This document shows positions 51,451 to 61,096 of a stretch of 64,000 nucleotides of DNA, piece after piece. Position 1 is the stretch's first letter; each line of letters opens with the position of its first letter. Source of the stretch: Gemmatimonadota bacterium (GTDB lineage Bacteria > Gemmatimonadota > Gemmatimonadetes > Longimicrobiales > Gaopeijiaceae); contig JAJDXM010000027.1 of NCBI GenBank assembly GCA_022823225.1, positions 1 through 64,000 on the forward strand, read 5' to 3'. The notes beneath the pieces were generated by a model. The model saw only the letters and a list, made by a program, of their open reading frames with translations. It ran no database searches and was not told where the DNA came from. The translations under genes and the position numbers were made by a program.

Positions 51451-52626
51451 ATGAAGCCTCACCGCCGGATTCCAGCCGTCGCCCTGGCGGCCCTGGCGCT
51501 CGCCGCGACACCCCTTCCCGCCCGCGCCCAAACACCCCAGACCCGACCTGCCACCGAAATCCGCCTGTCCGCCGAACCGGTCCTCTCCGTTGGGAGGCTC
51601 GATGGGCCGGACGAATACCTCTTCGGCAGGATCAGCGGCGGCGCCCGGCTCGCCGACGGCAGCGTGGTCGTGTCCGACCAGCAGCACTTCCGGATTCAGC
51701 GGTTCAGCGCCGACGGGGAGCACCTGTGGAGCCGCGGCCGCGCGGGCGAGGGGCCGGGAGAGTTCAGGAATGTGCAGATCGTGGACGGATGCTCCAGCGA
51801 GGACTCGATCGTCGTCTACGACATCTGGCTGGCTCGGCTCCACCAGTACGATTGGGAAGGGAACCTCGTGGACGAGTATCGCTTCCTTTACAACGGTCTG
51901 CCGCTGCGCGACTTCGTGTGCGCGCCGAACGGGCGACTGGCCTTCACGGGAAACAGTCTCGGCATGGGCGAGGAGGAGGTCGAACCCGGCGAGGTGCACC
52001 GCGTGCTCCTGTCGCTCGGCTTTGCGGAAACGGGGCACACGGCTGCGACCACACTGCGCGAGAGGATTCCCGGCCGCGAGCAACGGTCCCTGGGCGGCGG
52101 CGATGCCATGCCCGGCAGCATCTGGACCCACGACATAGCGCTGGCAGCCGGCAACGACGGCACGTGGCTCGGCACCAGCGACGACTACGAGGTCGAGCTC
52201 ATCGACTGGACGGGCTCGACAATTCGCCGGATCCGCTGGGAGGGGCCGGACCTGGCCGTTGCCCGGGAGGATGTCGACCGCTACCGGGACGCCCTCGAGG
52301 CGAGCTACCGCGACGACGACGACCCCGACTGGCGTGCGCGCTTCGAGAGCCGTTGGGAATGGGAGAGCGAGATCGTGCCCGCCGTGTTCCCCGCCTACCA
52401 ACGAATCATGATCGGGGACGACGGCGTACTGTGGGTCCACGACTACATCCGCCCGGGGGAGCGCAGCGAATGGTTCGGGTTCGACGACGATGGCAGGTGG
52501 GTGCGCACCCTGGTGCTGCCCGCCCGCACCGGCCTGCTGGACATCGGCGGCGACTGGGCGTTGGTCACGACGCGCGATGAGCTGGGTGTGCAGCGGGTGG
52601 AGGTGCGGGGGCTGGTGCAGTCCTGA
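51451..52626 (+). CDS. Six-bladed beta-propeller protein (paralogue B)
   Basis: A 391-residue secreted protein with a Sec leader (VALAALALAATPLPARAQ) rather than a lipobox. The propeller starts VGRLDGPDEYLFGRISGGAR and has GRAGEGPGEFRN. It is the close paralogue of the lipoprotein at 42605-44026, which has the same opening blade and the same kind of palindrome upstream. A Glu/Asp/Arg-rich helical insertion (YRDDDDPDWRARFESRWEWE) separates the last blades in both. Ligand unknown. Confidence 0.88.
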   Translation: MKPHRRIPAVALAALALAATPLPARAQTPQTRPATEIRLSAEPVLSVGRLDGPDEYLFGRISGGARLADGSVVVSDQQHFRIQRFSADGEHLWSRGRAGEGPGEFRNVQIVDGCSSEDSIVVYDIWLARLHQYDWEGNLVDEYRFLYNGLPLRDFVCAPNGRLAFTGNSLGMGEEEVEPGEVHRVLLSLGFAETGHTAATTLRERIPGREQRSLGGGDAMPGSIWTHDIALAAGNDGTWLGTSDDYEVELIDWTGSTIRRIRWEGPDLAVAREDVDRYRDALEASYRDDDDPDWRARFESRWEWESEIVPAVFPAYQRIMIGDDGVLWVHDYIRPGERSEWFGFDDDGRWVRTLVLPARTGLLDIGGDWALVTTRDELGVQRVEVRGLVQS

Positions 52627-53748: not shown

Positions 53749-54795
53749 ATGAAGAAGATGAGCAGCGCCCCGAGCCCGTTCGGAATGGCGGCGCTGGATC
53801 TGTTCGCGTCGGCCCTCGGCGCCTTCATCCTGATCGCGGTCGTCATCTTCCCGATGATCGGGAAGGCGGTGCCGGACATCCCCGCCCCGCCCGCGCCGAT
53901 CATCATGGCGGTTCCAGCGCCCGACTCGGTCGTATGCCCGGTATGCCCCATGTGCCCGGTCGTCGCCGCCGTTACGGAACCCATCGCCTGCCCGGTGTGC
54001 CCCGCCTGCCCGGTTCCGGAGCCCGTGCCGGTCACGATCTGTCCCGAAGTCGCCGTGCCCGACCCCGTAGAGTGCCCGGTGTGTCCTCCGGTTCCCGCCC
54101 AGGTCATATGCCCGGTCTGCCCTCCGGCGCCTCCCGCGGTCATTTGCCCGGAGCCCGCGCCTGCGCCCATCCAGGTGGACGCCCCACACTTCCGATTCCC
54201 CCACCTCGACATCATCATCGCGCTGGACATCACCAACAGCATGAGTGGGCAAGTCGCCAACCTGAAGGCGGAAGTCGAGCAGCTCGCCGTCCTTCTGAAC
54301 CGCATCTCGCCCAGCTTCGGCATCGGGATGGTGGCGTTCGGAGATCGTCGGTGGGAGAGCCCGCTGTACCTGTTCCCGTTGCGGGAGCTCTCCGGTCCGG
54401 CCACGAACCGCGATGCATTCCGCACCTTCGTGAACGGCCTCTCGGTGGGAATGGGAACCGGAAGAGGCAGCAACCCCGACTCGCCCGAGGCCTTCTACGA
54501 CGCGCTCTCGGCGGCATCGGGCATGACCTGGCGGCAAAGGTCCGAGCGAAGGGTCGTCGTGATGGTGACCGACAACCCGGCGTACAGCGACGAGATCGAC
54601 CGGTCCATACTGGTCGCGACCGGCATCGGACGGCCCGAAGGGCACCGCGTCTCCACGGTCTACGTGAAGACGGGGAGCGGGAACCAGCCCGCCACGGAAG
54701 AGTTTCTCCGCAACGTCGCCGAGGCGGGCGGCGGCCAGTACGTGCAGGACGTGGGCGGCTCGCTGACGGTCAACCTGCTTCTGTCCCTGTTTTGA
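53749..54795 (+). CDS. Single-helix vWA protein with Cys-Pro linker
   Basis: A 348-residue protein. One N-terminal helix carries an acidic residue (MAALDLFASALGAFILIAVV; Asp ~16), as do ExbD, TolR and MotB. A ~100-residue linker follows with repeated CPVCP units and other Cys-Pro pairs. The C-terminal ~190 residues form a von Willebrand A domain with an incomplete MIDAS (DIIIALDITNSMSGQVANLK; the later Thr/Asp are less clear). It probably acts as the B-subunit of the ExbB-like channel encoded convergently, 25 bases away. No family with this layout is known to me. Confidence 0.8.
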   Translation: MKKMSSAPSPFGMAALDLFASALGAFILIAVVIFPMIGKAVPDIPAPPAPIIMAVPAPDSVVCPVCPMCPVVAAVTEPIACPVCPACPVPEPVPVTICPEVAVPDPVECPVCPPVPAQVICPVCPPAPPAVICPEPAPAPIQVDAPHFRFPHLDIIIALDITNSMSGQVANLKAEVEQLAVLLNRISPSFGIGMVAFGDRRWESPLYLFPLRELSGPATNRDAFRTFVNGLSVGMGTGRGSNPDSPEAFYDALSAASGMTWRQRSERRVVVMVTDNPAYSDEIDRSILVATGIGRPEGHRVSTVYVKTGSGNQPATEEFLRNVAEAGGGQYVQDVGGSLTVNLLLSLF

Positions 54796-54820
54796 CCGGC
54801 CCGCCGGCCGGTGCGGCCGC

Positions 54821-55774
54821 CTACCCCCGGCCCGGACCCCGTTCCTCGTGCAGCCTGTTCGACAGATTGCCGAGGCAGTACTGGCCGATCCTGTTCAGGG
54901 CGCCCTCCTCCTTCCCCCGCATGACGTGCATCGCAAACATCAGCACCGCCGATTGCAGCAGCGCGAGCAGGGTCGTGTAGAACGCAACCCCGAGGTCTCC
55001 GGTCAGCTGCTCCATCATCTCGGGCCCGATCGTTCCATCCATGATGCTGGCGCCCGCGAACATGACCCCGGCGGAGCGCATCGCAAACGCAATACCCAGT
55101 ACGGTCCCGATGAATCCGAGCGTCGGGATCAGCCAGATGACGTAGCGCAGCATGTTGTATCTCAGCTCGATTTCATGCTGGTAGAGTTCGAGCGACACGT
55201 TGGTCATCGAATTGACCTGGTCCACCGACCCGCTGTTGCGGAACTGCAGAAGCGCGCCGGTCAGGAGCCGTTGCAGCAGGTATCGCCTCTCCGGGTCGGA
55301 CTCGACCACCCGCTGGTAGATCGGGGCCAGATCGCGTTTGCGCAGAATGGTCTCGTCGTCCTCAGGCAAAAGCCCGAGGTGAATCTGGTCGCCTTCCCGG
55401 CGGCCGGTGAAATGGCGCACCAGCAGCTCTCCCGCGGCCGCGCAGAAGGCGAGCCACATCACGTTTTGTATGGTGAACGGGTAGGGGAAGATCCGGGTGT
55501 TCCTGTCGATCAGCAGTTCGGCGGCCATGCTGTCGTCGCCAGCCGGAAACACGTAGGACAGAGCCCCCACGAGGACGATCCCGGCCAGCAGTGAGGTGAA
55601 CAGGGTCACGGCCCTGAACGGTACCTGCTCATCCCTGTCCGCGGGCCGCTGCGACGTGTGCGCCCACTCGGAGGGCGATTGGGAAGGGGACTCGGGAGGT
55701 GACTCGGGAGGCGGCTCGGGAGGCGACTGCGACGACGGCTCCGACAGCGCGCCCGCGTTGTCGCTTTCGCTCAT
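54821..55774 (-). CDS. ExbB/TolQ/MotA-family proton-channel protein
   Basis: A 317-residue protein with a Pro/Ser-rich head and four membrane helices: FTSLLAGIVLVGALSYVF, VMWLAFCAAAGELLV, YVIWLIPTLGFIGTVLGIAF and FYTTLLALLQSAVLMFAM. The third carries the family signature (LGFIGTVLGI) and a helical cytoplasmic domain sits between helices two and three. Such proteins form pentamers around a single-helix B-subunit and use the ion gradient. ATG 55774 overlaps the LRR gene stop by four bases. Confidence 0.88.
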   Translation of the reverse strand: MSESDNAGALSEPSSQSPPEPPPESPPESPSQSPSEWAHTSQRPADRDEQVPFRAVTLFTSLLAGIVLVGALSYVFPAGDDSMAAELLIDRNTRIFPYPFTIQNVMWLAFCAAAGELLVRHFTGRREGDQIHLGLLPEDDETILRKRDLAPIYQRVVESDPERRYLLQRLLTGALLQFRNSGSVDQVNSMTNVSLELYQHEIELRYNMLRYVIWLIPTLGFIGTVLGIAFAMRSAGVMFAGASIMDGTIGPEMMEQLTGDLGVAFYTTLLALLQSAVLMFAMHVMRGKEEGALNRIGQYCLGNLSNRLHEERGPGRG

Positions 55775-57288
55775 TGCCGCCCGCACTCCGGAAGGCGAAC
55801 CCCGCCCAGCTGCGGATTGATGCCGGACTCGAAGCGCATCAGCGCCTTTGGTATGCACCCCGAAAGACGATTGTTGCTCAGTGTCAGCCGCTTCAGGTTG
55901 GTCAGGTTGGCCAGTTCGGCCGGGATCTGCCCGGAAAGCTGGTTGCCGCTCAGCGCGAGTAGCTCGAGCTGCCCCAGTCCGCCCAGCTCGGGCGGGATCC
56001 GGCCGGCGATCTGCGTCCGCGACAGGCGCAGCCGTTTGAGACTCGCCAGATTCCCGAGTTCGGGCGGGATGATCCCGGTCAGCGCGTTGTTGTACAGGTG
56101 CAGGTCCTCGAGGCTCGACATCGCACCCAGCTCGGCCGGTATCGGGCCCGACAGCTGGTTGTCTTCGAGGAACAGCGACCTGAGCTTGCTCAGCGAGCCC
56201 AGCTCGGCCGGTATCGCGCCGGACAACTGGTTTCCACCCAGGTTGAGGGTCTCCAGCTCCGTCAGGCGCGCGAGCCGCGTGGGAATCACGCCCCCCAGAT
56301 TCCGCCCGTTCAGATCGAGCCCCACGACGATTTCGCCGCTTGACTGCACGCCCGTCCAGGACCGCCGGTTCAGGGCGAGGCGCCAGTTCAGGTCGCCGGT
56401 GGTCCCGGCCAGATCGTTTCTCGCGGCGAGCAGCAGCTGTTCGTCGGTGAGCCGCGCTTCGGCCCGTCGCTGCGCTGCATCCACCATGTCGGCCTGCCGC
56501 TGCGCCGGATCCGCCACCGCCGCGGCCGCGGCTCGGCGGGCCTCCTCCTGGCGGGCCTGCTCCGCCAGACGGGCCTCCTCTTCCAATCGCTCCTGCTCCG
56601 CCCGGCGGGCCTCCTCTTCCAGGCGTTCCTGCTCCGCACGGCGGGCCTCCTCTTCCAGGCGTTCCTGTTCCGCCCGGCGGGCTTCCTCCTCCAGGCGCTC
56701 CTGCTCCGCCCGGCGCGCTTCCTCCTCGATCCGCTCCAACTCCCGGCGGGCCTCTTCCGCGAGCCGGTCTTCCTCGGCCCGGCGAGCCTCGTCCGCCAGC
56801 CGCTGCTCCTCCTCACGCCGGGCGGCGTCAAGGCGGGCCTGTTCCGCCAGCCTCTCCTCCCGTTCAATCCGCCGTTCGTCGGCGAGCCGCTGCGCCTCGG
56901 CCTCCGCCTCGTCCAGACGGCGTGCCTCCTCCGCCTTCCTCTCCGCCTCCCGGCCCGCCGCCACCAACTCCGTCAAGCTGGTGCGGTCGAGGTACCCGGT
57001 GGCCTCGATTCCCCGGTCGGTCTGCCATTCGCGGAGTCCCTGACGGGCCTCGGGTTCCAGCACGCCGTCGGCCTCCCCGGAGTAGCGACCTTCGGCGGAC
57101 AGTCCCAGCTCCACCAGCGCCAGGACATCCGTGCCGAGGCCGAGCTGAGCCTCCTGGGCGGCGGCGCGCTGCTCGGGCGAGAGGGCCCAGTCCCGCGCCA
57201 TGGAGACCATGAGGGCCGCCACGGCGACCACCATGGTGACGCCGAACGCATAGAAGACACGACGACGGCCTGCCCCGGGGCGGCGCAT
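55771..57288 (-). CDS. PG-binding / coiled-coil / LRR membrane protein
   Basis: A 505-residue protein. One helix near the N-terminus (VFYAFGVTMVVAVAALMVSM) is followed by a peptidoglycan-binding-1-like domain (~45-110; GLSAEGRYSGEADGVLEPEA, LREWQTDRGIEATGYLDRTS), a ~180-residue Glu/Arg-rich coiled coil with 12-residue repeats (EEARRAEQERLE), and seven to eight plant-type leucine-rich repeats (LxGxIPxELGxLxxL). The LRR probably binds a partner across the envelope. ATG 57288 overlaps the upstream stop by one base, so it is coupled. Not a kinase or secretion protein I recognise. Confidence 0.8.
   Translation of the reverse strand: MRRPGAGRRRVFYAFGVTMVVAVAALMVSMARDWALSPEQRAAAQEAQLGLGTDVLALVELGLSAEGRYSGEADGVLEPEARQGLREWQTDRGIEATGYLDRTSLTELVAAGREAERKAEEARRLDEAEAEAQRLADERRIEREERLAEQARLDAARREEEQRLADEARRAEEDRLAEEARRELERIEEEARRAEQERLEEEARRAEQERLEEEARRAEQERLEEEARRAEQERLEEEARLAEQARQEEARRAAAAAVADPAQRQADMVDAAQRRAEARLTDEQLLLAARNDLAGTTGDLNWRLALNRRSWTGVQSSGEIVVGLDLNGRNLGGVIPTRLARLTELETLNLGGNQLSGAIPAELGSLSKLRSLFLEDNQLSGPIPAELGAMSSLEDLHLYNNALTGIIPPELGNLASLKRLRLSRTQIAGRIPPELGGLGQLELLALSGNQLSGQIPAELANLTNLKRLTLSNNRLSGCIPKALMRFESGINPQLGGVRLPECGRQ
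56568..56735. repeat. Tandem 36-bp coiled-coil repeat
   Basis: Four to five near-identical 36-bp units encoding the EEARRAEQERLE segment. Copy number is prone to change, which would set coiled-coil length. Confidence 0.7.
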
Positions 57289-58364
57289 CACCGGCTCCAG
57301 ACCAGGCCGATCTCGGTACGGCCCGCGGCCCGCCGGACGAACAGATCCGGCCCGGCCCCGGCCACGTTGCTTCTCTGCGGCGCCGGCAACGCGGTCACGC
57401 GCGAGATCGCCTCGATTTCGTACATCTTCCTCGACCCGAGCACCCAGTCGACCGCACCCCATACTCCGAGCACGCTCCCCACACCGATGAGCCACGTGTT
57501 CGCGGTCTCGGTCCGGTTCCGCCTGTGCACCGCCGACAGGTACTCCCACTCCATGTCGTAGTCGGCCCGGTCCGGCACGCCAAGCCAGGGCAGCCACTTC
57601 ACCGTCGCGTAGGAGCCGCCCGCCATGATGGTGCCCCAGAGGAACTTCCTCTTCCCCGACGCGCGCCTCGTGCTGGCGTCCCCGTACTGCTCCTCCAGAG
57701 GCGCATCGGTCAATGTGGGAAGCTCCCCTTCCATCGTCCCCATGTCACGCCGTGCCAGGAAGAAGTCGGCGGCCCCCCAGGTGAGGAGGCCGGTGCCAGC
57801 CAGCGTGAACACGTTCCTGACGGTCCCCGCTCTGGAGTGCCTGTCTACAGCGGATTGATGGGAAGCCGAGTCGGCATAGGCGTCCTCGTCCGCCGCCGCG
57901 AAAAGGACCTGGGTCGTCGCAATGGCGACGATGGCCGCCGTCCCTCCCCAGATCGACCGCTTCCGGCCCGACGACCGCCGCGCCTTCGATCTGTCGTATT
58001 GCGTGTAGATGTCGGGGATCACGGACCCTGTCGCCGCGGGCCGCGCTCCGCCGGCCACGCCACCCACGACCTCGACCTCGGAGGCGAGGACATACCCGAT
58101 CAGGTCGTCCTGGCCGGGCTGCCCCGGTACCGAAACGATATGGTACGAACCCGATTCCCCGATCCAGTCCAGCGTCGCACCGGCCGCCATGTTGGCGATG
58201 ACGGGGCTGGAATCGGACGGGTCGAGCCGGACGGTCGCGCCACTGCTGAGCGCCCTGACCTGCTGGGCCGAGGCCAGCCCGTGTCCGAAAGCGGGAGCTG
58301 CGAGAGAGACTCCGAGGAACATGATGCAAGCGCCGACCAAGCCGTGCTTCAGCCTCATTCTCAC
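57288..58364 (-). CDS. SH3-like domain membrane protein
   Basis: A 358-residue protein (GTG 58364 or ATG 58358). A leader (GACIMFLGVSLAAPAFG) precedes a bacterial SH3-like domain (~40-100; VRLDPSDSSPVIANMAAGAT, GYVLASEVEVVGG) and then four or so short hydrophobic helices, two of them repeating (SIWGGTAAIVAIATTQVLFA and KFLWGTIMAGGSYATVKWLP). SH3-like domains bind wall or peptide ligands. First gene of the run with the LRR and ExbB-like genes. Confidence 0.7.
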   Translation of the reverse strand: MRMRLKHGLVGACIMFLGVSLAAPAFGHGLASAQQVRALSSGATVRLDPSDSSPVIANMAAGATLDWIGESGSYHIVSVPGQPGQDDLIGYVLASEVEVVGGVAGGARPAATGSVIPDIYTQYDRSKARRSSGRKRSIWGGTAAIVAIATTQVLFAAADEDAYADSASHQSAVDRHSRAGTVRNVFTLAGTGLLTWGAADFFLARRDMGTMEGELPTLTDAPLEEQYGDASTRRASGKRKFLWGTIMAGGSYATVKWLPWLGVPDRADYDMEWEYLSAVHRRNRTETANTWLIGVGSVLGVWGAVDWVLGSRKMYEIEAISRVTALPAPQRSNVAGAGPDLFVRRAAGRTEIGLVWSR

Positions 58365-58498: not shown

Positions 58499-59686
58499 CT
58501 ATCGGTACCTGTAGAGCCGAACTTCTTCCACATCAAGGGCGTCGCGCTGGAGCAGGACATAGCGGTCGGCATCGATGGCCAGCACGCGCGCTCGAGCGGG
58601 AAGACCCAACGATCCCTGCGGTTGACCGTCGGGGCCGATGACGAGCCAGCGTCTCGTTTCCTCGTCAGGGCGTGCGGCGAGCCCGATCCACACCATTTCG
58701 TCGGGCCCCAGGACGGCCGAGTGGAAGGCCGGATGGGTCTCCGGGTACTGGAGATTCTCGACGAAGTCCACATACCAATCCGGCGGGTCCGCTCTGCGGG
58801 TCAGCCGTTCCGCTCTTGATGTCTCGAATTCCTCGGCGGTGACCGTCCAACCGCCGCCCGAGCCGTGGATTCGCCGCTTCAGACCGCCGTCGGCAGCGTA
58901 GATGGACAGGCTCAACGCGTCGGTGTCCCCGATCAAGGCCCGGTCCCCGAGCGCACTGGCAACGATGTCCCGCCCGAACCCGGCCTCCTGCCGAGAGAGC
59001 ACTTCCAGATCGGGACTGCTGCCGTAGGCCCATTCCTGCGCAGGGAGCAATCCCAGCGTGTCCGGCGCGGTCTCGAGACCCGTGTACGACAGTAGCGGAG
59101 TCGTGTCCCGCTTCATCCCGGAGGGCTGATAGTGTCGCTGGACGCCCAGGATCGCCAACGTGTTCCCGGCGGGGTCATGCGCGAGAGGCTTCAGGTCCAC
59201 CAGGGCGCTCTGCGGGGAGAGACGCGAAGACTCAAGGAACTCCCCGGTCTCCGAGAAACTCGAGAGGCGTCCCAGCCGCGTATCGTAGGCCAGGAACCCC
59301 GAGTCTGCCGTGAGGAGCGCCGTGATAACGCCAAACTCTCCCGGTCCCTCTCCCCGACCCCCCACTCGCCGCACGAGCGAACCATCCTCGGAGAGCAGCA
59401 GTACTTCGGTGTCACCGGTGTTGGCCAGCGCAACGCCGCCGTTCCCGAGCAGGACGGCATCGCCGACCCTGTACAGCTCGATCCCGCGCTCCCGCGTGGA
59501 GAAGACGAGGTCTGCCGTCACTTCGGGCGCCGACAGTTCCTCGACCCGGCCGAGCGAGATGATCCTGACGTCCGCCGAATCGCGGACCTGAACCGTGCGC
59601 TGGGCTTCGGACGCCACCACCGATCGAGCGCCGATGCACGCGATGATCGCTGAGAGGAAGATTGCGACACACGCTACTCTGGCCAT
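58499..59686 (-). CDS. Six-bladed beta-propeller protein
   Basis: A 395-residue protein from ATG 59686 (GAGGAACAA upstream). Leader VACVAIFLSAIIACIGARSV. Blades include GRGEGPGEFGV and LSIYAADGGLKRRI. A Trp/Glu-rich helical insertion (ADPPDWYVDFVENLQYPETH) lies before the last blades. Divergent from the frameshifted propeller gene at 59824, with 137 bases between starts. Confidence 0.85.
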   Translation of the reverse strand: MARVACVAIFLSAIIACIGARSVVASEAQRTVQVRDSADVRIISLGRVEELSAPEVTADLVFSTRERGIELYRVGDAVLLGNGGVALANTGDTEVLLLSEDGSLVRRVGGRGEGPGEFGVITALLTADSGFLAYDTRLGRLSSFSETGEFLESSRLSPQSALVDLKPLAHDPAGNTLAILGVQRHYQPSGMKRDTTPLLSYTGLETAPDTLGLLPAQEWAYGSSPDLEVLSRQEAGFGRDIVASALGDRALIGDTDALSLSIYAADGGLKRRIHGSGGGWTVTAEEFETSRAERLTRRADPPDWYVDFVENLQYPETHPAFHSAVLGPDEMVWIGLAARPDEETRRWLVIGPDGQPQGSLGLPARARVLAIDADRYVLLQRDALDVEEVRLYRYR

Positions 59687-59823: not shown

Positions 59824-61096
59824 ATGGGACGAATGGTTAGTGGACCGAATTTGTCTGGACGTACCGCACATTCGGATGTACCGGCTGGTGCGGTAGGATT
59901 GGCACCCCGAAGCCTCACCATTCTCGCGCTCCTCGCAACTCTCTCCGCCTGCGCGCCCGATCCTTCGAACCCCGGCGCAACCCCCGCCCAGATCGAGGAC
60001 AGCGCGGGTGTCCGGATCGTCACATACGCGGGCACGCCCACGAGTGCCGCCTCCTTCCGCTTCGCCGCGGAGCCCCGCTACCGGCACGGCACCAACCCGG
60101 GTGACTATGCGTTCCAGGGGGCAGGGACCGGTCGCCTCCTGCCGGACGGCGGCGCGATCGTGTACGACGAGTGGAACGCGGAACTGGTTGTAATCGAGGC
60201 GGACAGCGCGACCCACGAGGTGCTGGCGGTGGAGGGCGAGGGACCGGGAGACGTGGGCCACATTGACGCCTTGTTCGCACTGGGGCAGGACAGCATCCTG
60301 ATGGCCGACCCCGACCTTGGCCGGATCACCCTCTTCGCCGGCAGAGCGGTGGCACGCACCTGGGCCCTCACGTCAATGCGCTATCTCCGCGTGAAGGGAA
60401 TCGCTTCACCGGACGATTTGCTGCTGGCCACTTCCTGGGGCCCAACCGGGTTCGCGGAGGCGTGGGCCCCCGGGCACCTGGCGCGGTTCGACATGGAGAC
60501 CAGCGCCCTCGACACCGTCGCCTCCTTCGACCTCATGGCACCGTTCCCGCCCGAGCTGGAGTGGGATCCGATCGAACCCTCCGGCGAGGTGACCGTGGCC
60601 TCCGGGCATTTCGTCCAAACCAGATCCGACATGGCGCAGGTCACGTGGCGTCTGGCCGATGGCACCGTAACGCAGATCGTCCGCTGGCGGGCCGCGCCGG
60701 CTCCTCTCACCGCGGAGTCGCTGGAGCCAATAGCTGCCGAGCACCGCAAACGAGATTCGCATGCACGACCCCGGCCTTTCCGAAGCCACCATCGCCGAAG
60801 TCACCGAGCGGAACATGACCGCCTATCGCGCCAGCATCGGGCGGCCGCTGCCCCTCTTTGGCTCCCCGTTCCCGGACGACGAGGGAAGGGTTTGGCTGCC
60901 CTCCCACAGGCCTGCGGGTGAGCGCCACAGTGCGCCGCCCTACGCCGTGATCGCGTCCGACGGGCAATGGCTGGGCAGAGTGGAGGCACCGCCCCGATTC
61001 CGCATACTGGATGTCGCCGCCGGGCTTGTGCTCGGAGTGGAGCCGGATGAGATGGGTGTGGAGCGGGTGGTGGTGTATGACTTGACAGGCGGGTAG
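59824..61096 (+). pseudogene. Six-bladed propeller lipoprotein gene with frameshift
   Basis: The frame from ATG 59824 (GGAG six bases before) encodes a lipoprotein (LTILALLATLSAC) with blades to about IAAEHRKR, near 60750. The reading then moves by one to the frame HDPGLSEATIAEVTERNMTA through APPRFRILDVAAGLVLGVEP, ending at 61096. Both halves are normal propeller sequence, so a single indel in the window at ~60745-60765 separates them. Either a recent pseudogene or an assembly error; the family motif is VEGEGPGDVG. Confidence 0.75.

Follow-up and report, generated by a model that had tools for sequence, protein, structure and literature searches.

The window, i.e. the whole 64,000-nucleotide stretch of contig JAJDXM010000027.1 that was analysed, comes from a genome of the Gemmatimonadota, a type known from sponge metagenomes, and carries a compact four-gene module whose features are the following:

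53749..54795, + strand: gene of a vWA protein of 348 aa, identified by ORF, Pfam and fold search
53779..53859, + strand: codons of the predicted trans-pore helix of this protein (residues 11-37), by arithmetic from the gene start, 53749
53797-53799, + strand: codon of Asp17 of the vWA gene, by the same arithmetic from 53749
54821..55774, - strand: gene of an ExbB/TolQ/MotA-like channel protein of 317 aa, by Pfam, hydropathy and alignment
55771..57288, - strand: gene of a membrane protein with PG_binding_1, coil and LRR parts, by Pfam and hydropathy
57288..58358, - strand: SH3 gene, with a signal peptide, a weak bacterial SH3 and several hydrophobic segments, by Pfam and hydropathy

All reading frames are open, and coordinates, strands and overlaps are those given by the first-pass annotation, as is the 25 bp that separates the convergent vWA and ExbB-like genes. 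The three minus-strand genes form an operon (58358-54821) in the order SH3, PG-binding/coil/LRR and ExbB-like, with a TGATG overlap joining the first to the second gene and an ATGA overlap the second to the third; the ATG at 58358 is as likely a start for the SH3 gene as the GTG at 58364. Related secreted propeller-like proteins are encoded on both sides of the module (51451-52626, 58499-59686 and 59899-60921), a family that occurs near 9 of the 21 related loci compared below but is repeated within loci and is therefore probably just common in these genomes.

The channel protein matches the Pfam MotA_ExbB model over the cut-off (E 5.6e-9), as is characteristic of the A subunit of the ion-driven A/B motors, and has four hydrophobic segments, the topology of the module proteins being read from hydropathy and charge. 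Its T224 and T268 align with threonines of the canonical ExbB/TolQ proteins encoded elsewhere in this genome, residues that line the pore in this family. A sequence search of solved structures with the channel protein gave no significant match; in a fold search with its model the top-ranking hits are without exception ExbB or TolQ chains, at E 8.6e-3 or worse. The single-chain models of the channel and vWA proteins (pLDDT 50.7 and 44.0) are too poor for detail.

The vWA protein begins with a short, positive N-terminus followed by one helix (about residues 11-37) that carries Asp17, then a Pro/Cys-rich linker (about 40-150, with 12 Cys and 34 Pro) and the vWA domain (about 153-345). Pfam vWA models fall just under their cut-offs (E 2.4e-5 to 4e-4); the vWA label is stronger than this because a distant homologue (L054) lies above the Pfam cut-off and because the fold search with the protein model returns vWA domains (best E 1.2e-5). 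A single helix of the B-subunit type with a conserved Asp is the other hallmark of the A/B motors, and the Asp that had been picked out at the B-subunit position is invariant, D17 being present in every aligned relative. The linker contains all 12 Cys of the protein, many of them within CPx triplets. If it formed a polyproline helix, Cys at every third position would share a face, where they could join two B subunits or bind metal; they are absent from the L054 and Rhizobium proteins (see below) and thus unnecessary for a motor as such.

The PG-binding/LRR protein consists of one N-terminal helix, PG_binding_1, a long charged coil and leucine-rich repeats, with both Pfam matches over the cut-off (LRR_1 2.3e-24, PG_binding_1 8.3e-6). 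These domains agree with the first-pass annotation, which overlooked the apparent ancestry of the gene in a membrane kinase. The LRR gene of L046 and L050 opens with a protein kinase domain that is probably inactive because its motifs are changed: the catalytic Lys is replaced by Q or T (EVVIQEYLP or TVLITEYLP), HRD by HLD and DFG by GFG. Only the kinase N-lobe is retained in L047 and L048, and the protein of the window and that of L052 begin just before the membrane helix, with the kinase domain gone and with it the catalytic Lys, HRD and DFG expected of a Ser/Thr kinase. The window gene is thus read as a descendant of a membrane kinase, a decay whose direction is taken from the motifs rather than from a tree. 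The SH3 gene is present as described earlier; the SH3 label itself is weak, with an SH3_3 match under the Pfam cut-off (E 0.0015).

Conserved synteny, proposed as a check on the module, was found: the four families stay together across 21 related loci while the flanking genes vary. The loci were fetched via the vWA gene; being mostly close relatives, mainly of one genus, they do not count as independent cases. All 21 contain the vWA and LRR families (vWA by construction); the SH3 family is present in 20/21, the contig of L031 stopping short of it, and a simple gene caller finds the ExbB family in 20/21, the missing case (L048) being recovered in the same genome by profile search. The next most shared family reaches 9/21 and all others five or fewer; a chance neighbourhood was therefore rejected, the four families being the only ones common to nearly all 21 loci. 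A stronger argument for linkage than these counts is that the genes occur in three orders: with a convergent vWA gene in the window and its close relatives; all in one direction with vWA last (L046, L052, L053); and with vWA at the head of a series that continues with two SH3 genes, the LRR gene and ExbB (L047, L050). The ATGA overlap of the LRR and ExbB genes is found in all 16 of the loci checked for it. Against relatives without stops, dN/dS is 0.11-0.16 for ExbB, 0.13-0.31 for vWA, 0.28-0.37 for LRR and 0.19-0.50 for SH3, values that likewise argue against chance. In the sister genus the gene that immediately follows vWA encodes a Carboxypeptidase-regulatory-like domain protein (L046:9074-10207, L052:6712-7608). 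In L047 a large Big_2 and LRR protein, possibly an extra partner, is encoded immediately behind ExbB (1-2991), and L050 has a similar gene.

Among 395 sampled genomes of the phylum, 24 match the vWA profile at E <= 1e-10, almost all of them from the genus of the window or one sister genus, and the channel profile finds 17 of 346 genomes in the same two genera. ExbB and vWA co-occur in the sampled genomes, with exceptions that contig ends explain save in one case; vWA is found without a channel match in G020 and G081, where it lies near a contig end, and in the distant G084 and G341. G084, the source of L054, has the vWA protein with its helix, encoded on a contig of 5 kb, but no detectable member of the ExbB subfamily; its assembly is fragmented. 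One genome (G109) holds two vWA and channel modules, on contigs C25 and C11 (L006 and L030), whose vWA proteins are about 93% and 86% identical to that of the window. Beyond the Gemmatimonadota, genome coverage consists of a single vWA protein scan. The viral contigs searched with the vWA alignment, the channel alignment and the Rhizobium channel yielded no relative, nor did the phage genomes searched; among plasmids, one close and two distant relatives were found.

A Rhizobium leguminosarum plasmid (NZ_CP125637.1, L067) encodes an ExbB that is 44% identical to the window channel over 247 residues, and the gene right after it encodes FSMSVLDLFASALGGFIMIAIILFP, in which 17 of 25 residues are identical to the window helix. 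In place of the vWA domain this helix is followed by a coil and a domain without Pfam match (L067:12808-13545, a B-subunit-like protein). Between the two systems the outer domain has changed but the helix has been retained; therefore it is the helix, not the vWA domain, that goes with the channel, and the Rhizobium pair is the best independent evidence that the helix is the channel partner. The cluster is otherwise unlike the window: the outer domain is not vWA, and the neighbours are PP2C, FHA and Ser/Thr kinase genes. The PP2C and FHA genes precede the channel gene in the same direction, two kinases that retain their motifs lie within 9 kb of it, and a separate vWA-FHA protein is also encoded. 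Since these Ser/Thr kinases carry PDZ domains and lack both PG-binding and LRR parts, orthology is not claimed; their PADLOC defence matches were read as generic kinase matches and set aside as evidence of defence.

The ExbB-like and vWA proteins probably form an ion-driven motor of the ExbBD/TolQR/MotAB type that the LRR and SH3 proteins may position at the wall. A ring of channel chains would enclose in its pore the helices of probably two vWA proteins, whose Asp17 would take up and release ions; the proline-rich linker would pass the resulting motion to the vWA domain, predicted to lie in the periplasm, and this domain might grip or pull a partner. The PG-binding/LRR protein, apparently a former membrane kinase cut down to its outer part, may work with the SH3 protein to keep the complex at the cell wall or place it there, a plausible attachment. 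The stator proposed in the first-pass annotation is in this way partly supported, its B-subunit idea being strengthened by the invariant Asp, the channel pore threonines and the helix-kept pair of Rhizobium.

The same genes might form a regulated ion channel or signalling relay and not a force-producing motor, with the vWA domain as a sensor arm and with ion entry gated by binding to the vWA, LRR or wall-binding domain or controlled by kinase signalling. Such a relay, which we consider unlikely, would account for the kinase or its remains in the LRR proteins of sister loci, for the PP2C and FHA genes directly upstream of the Rhizobium channel gene with kinases nearby, and for the FHA gene that follows vWA in L054. 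Yet in the Gemmatimonadota loci the channel and vWA pair persist although the kinase is missing or lacks its key residues, and to our knowledge every characterised member of the channel family is a motor or energiser. Less likely again is a vWA protein that acts as a TonB/TolA-like arm attached laterally to the channel, in which case a gene outside the module would provide the ExbD-type protein. The succession of helix, proline-rich linker and outer domain does resemble the TonB/TolA layout, and the genome holds three other ExbB-type genes, two of them adjoining ExbD-like genes. However, no ExbD or TolR gene belongs to the module in the 21-locus comparison, and the separate vWA family of TonB/TolA-like type that has been described has an SHLS motif with His in its helix (PMC12204202), whereas the module helix has no His and an invariant Asp instead. 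An anti-phage system of the Zorya kind is very improbable, since a weak ZorA match (E 4.6e-4) and two cyanobacterial plasmids on which a distant ExbB relative adjoins CRISPR or methylase/helicase genes are set against the absence of any other Zorya component or recognised defence gene at the window module, of PADLOC matches for the other three proteins and of relatives in the phage or viral collections. The plasmid genes themselves (L068:7554-10133 in Anabaena, L088:5860-8460 in Microcystis) encode an ExbB-like protein whose C-terminal tail is long and, after it, two small proteins that differ from each other and contain helix motifs. They lie next to type III-B CRISPR genes or methylase/helicase genes, and may specify a defence-related motor in which the two B subunits are not alike.

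If the module is a motor, as preferred here, an independent lineage backs the proposal that vWA proteins are the moving part of ExbB/TolQ-type motors, and a natural domain swap isolates the helix as the motor part. That motors of this type are linked to Ser/Thr signalling is a reasonable hypothesis, drawn from two or three lineages, and if true it would connect two fields. More tentatively, there may be a wider class of motors with a constant pore helix and an exchangeable outer domain that arose under Ser/Thr kinase, PP2C and FHA control, of which the Gemmatimonadota branch lost the kinase and kept the wall-binding scaffold.

Comparison with known systems shows both what is shared and what is particular to the module. 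With ExbBD, TolQR and MotAB it has in common the channel family, the pore threonines and the helix Asp; it differs in an outer domain that is vWA, not peptidoglycan- or TonB-binding, and in an extra N-terminal hydrophobic segment of the channel relative to the ExbB/TolQ proteins of the same genome. Zorya (ZorAB) is similar in distant channel homology, and the module differs from it in having neither the ZorB outer domain nor other Zorya genes. The nearest published counterpart is a family of vWA proteins with a TolR/ExbD-like trans-pore helix (TPH) and conserved Asp, found alongside tolQ homologues without tolR/exbD, whose rotation in the pore has been proposed (PMC12204202, Mol Biol Evol 2025, Fig. 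4c,d). The motor-plus-vWA idea was thus already published in 2025, and the first-pass annotation, which recognised no described system with this set, is only half right; this TolQ and vWA proposal, made independently, supports the arrangement of the module. The TPH-vWA systems are mainly of Proteobacteria and Verrucomicrobia and mostly have pairs of different vWA genes, an arrangement that is predominant, not universal (PMC12204202). The module, likened to this family by arrangement and not by sequence, has one vWA gene per locus, a Gemmatimonadota host, and LRR/PG-binding and SH3 partners. These partner genes are unmentioned in that paper, from whose main text the word kinase is absent, and a literature search that took in a minority of subscription papers found no description of the partner set. 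What appears to be new here is the occurrence in Gemmatimonadota, the single vWA domain on a Cys-Pro linker and this set of partner genes.
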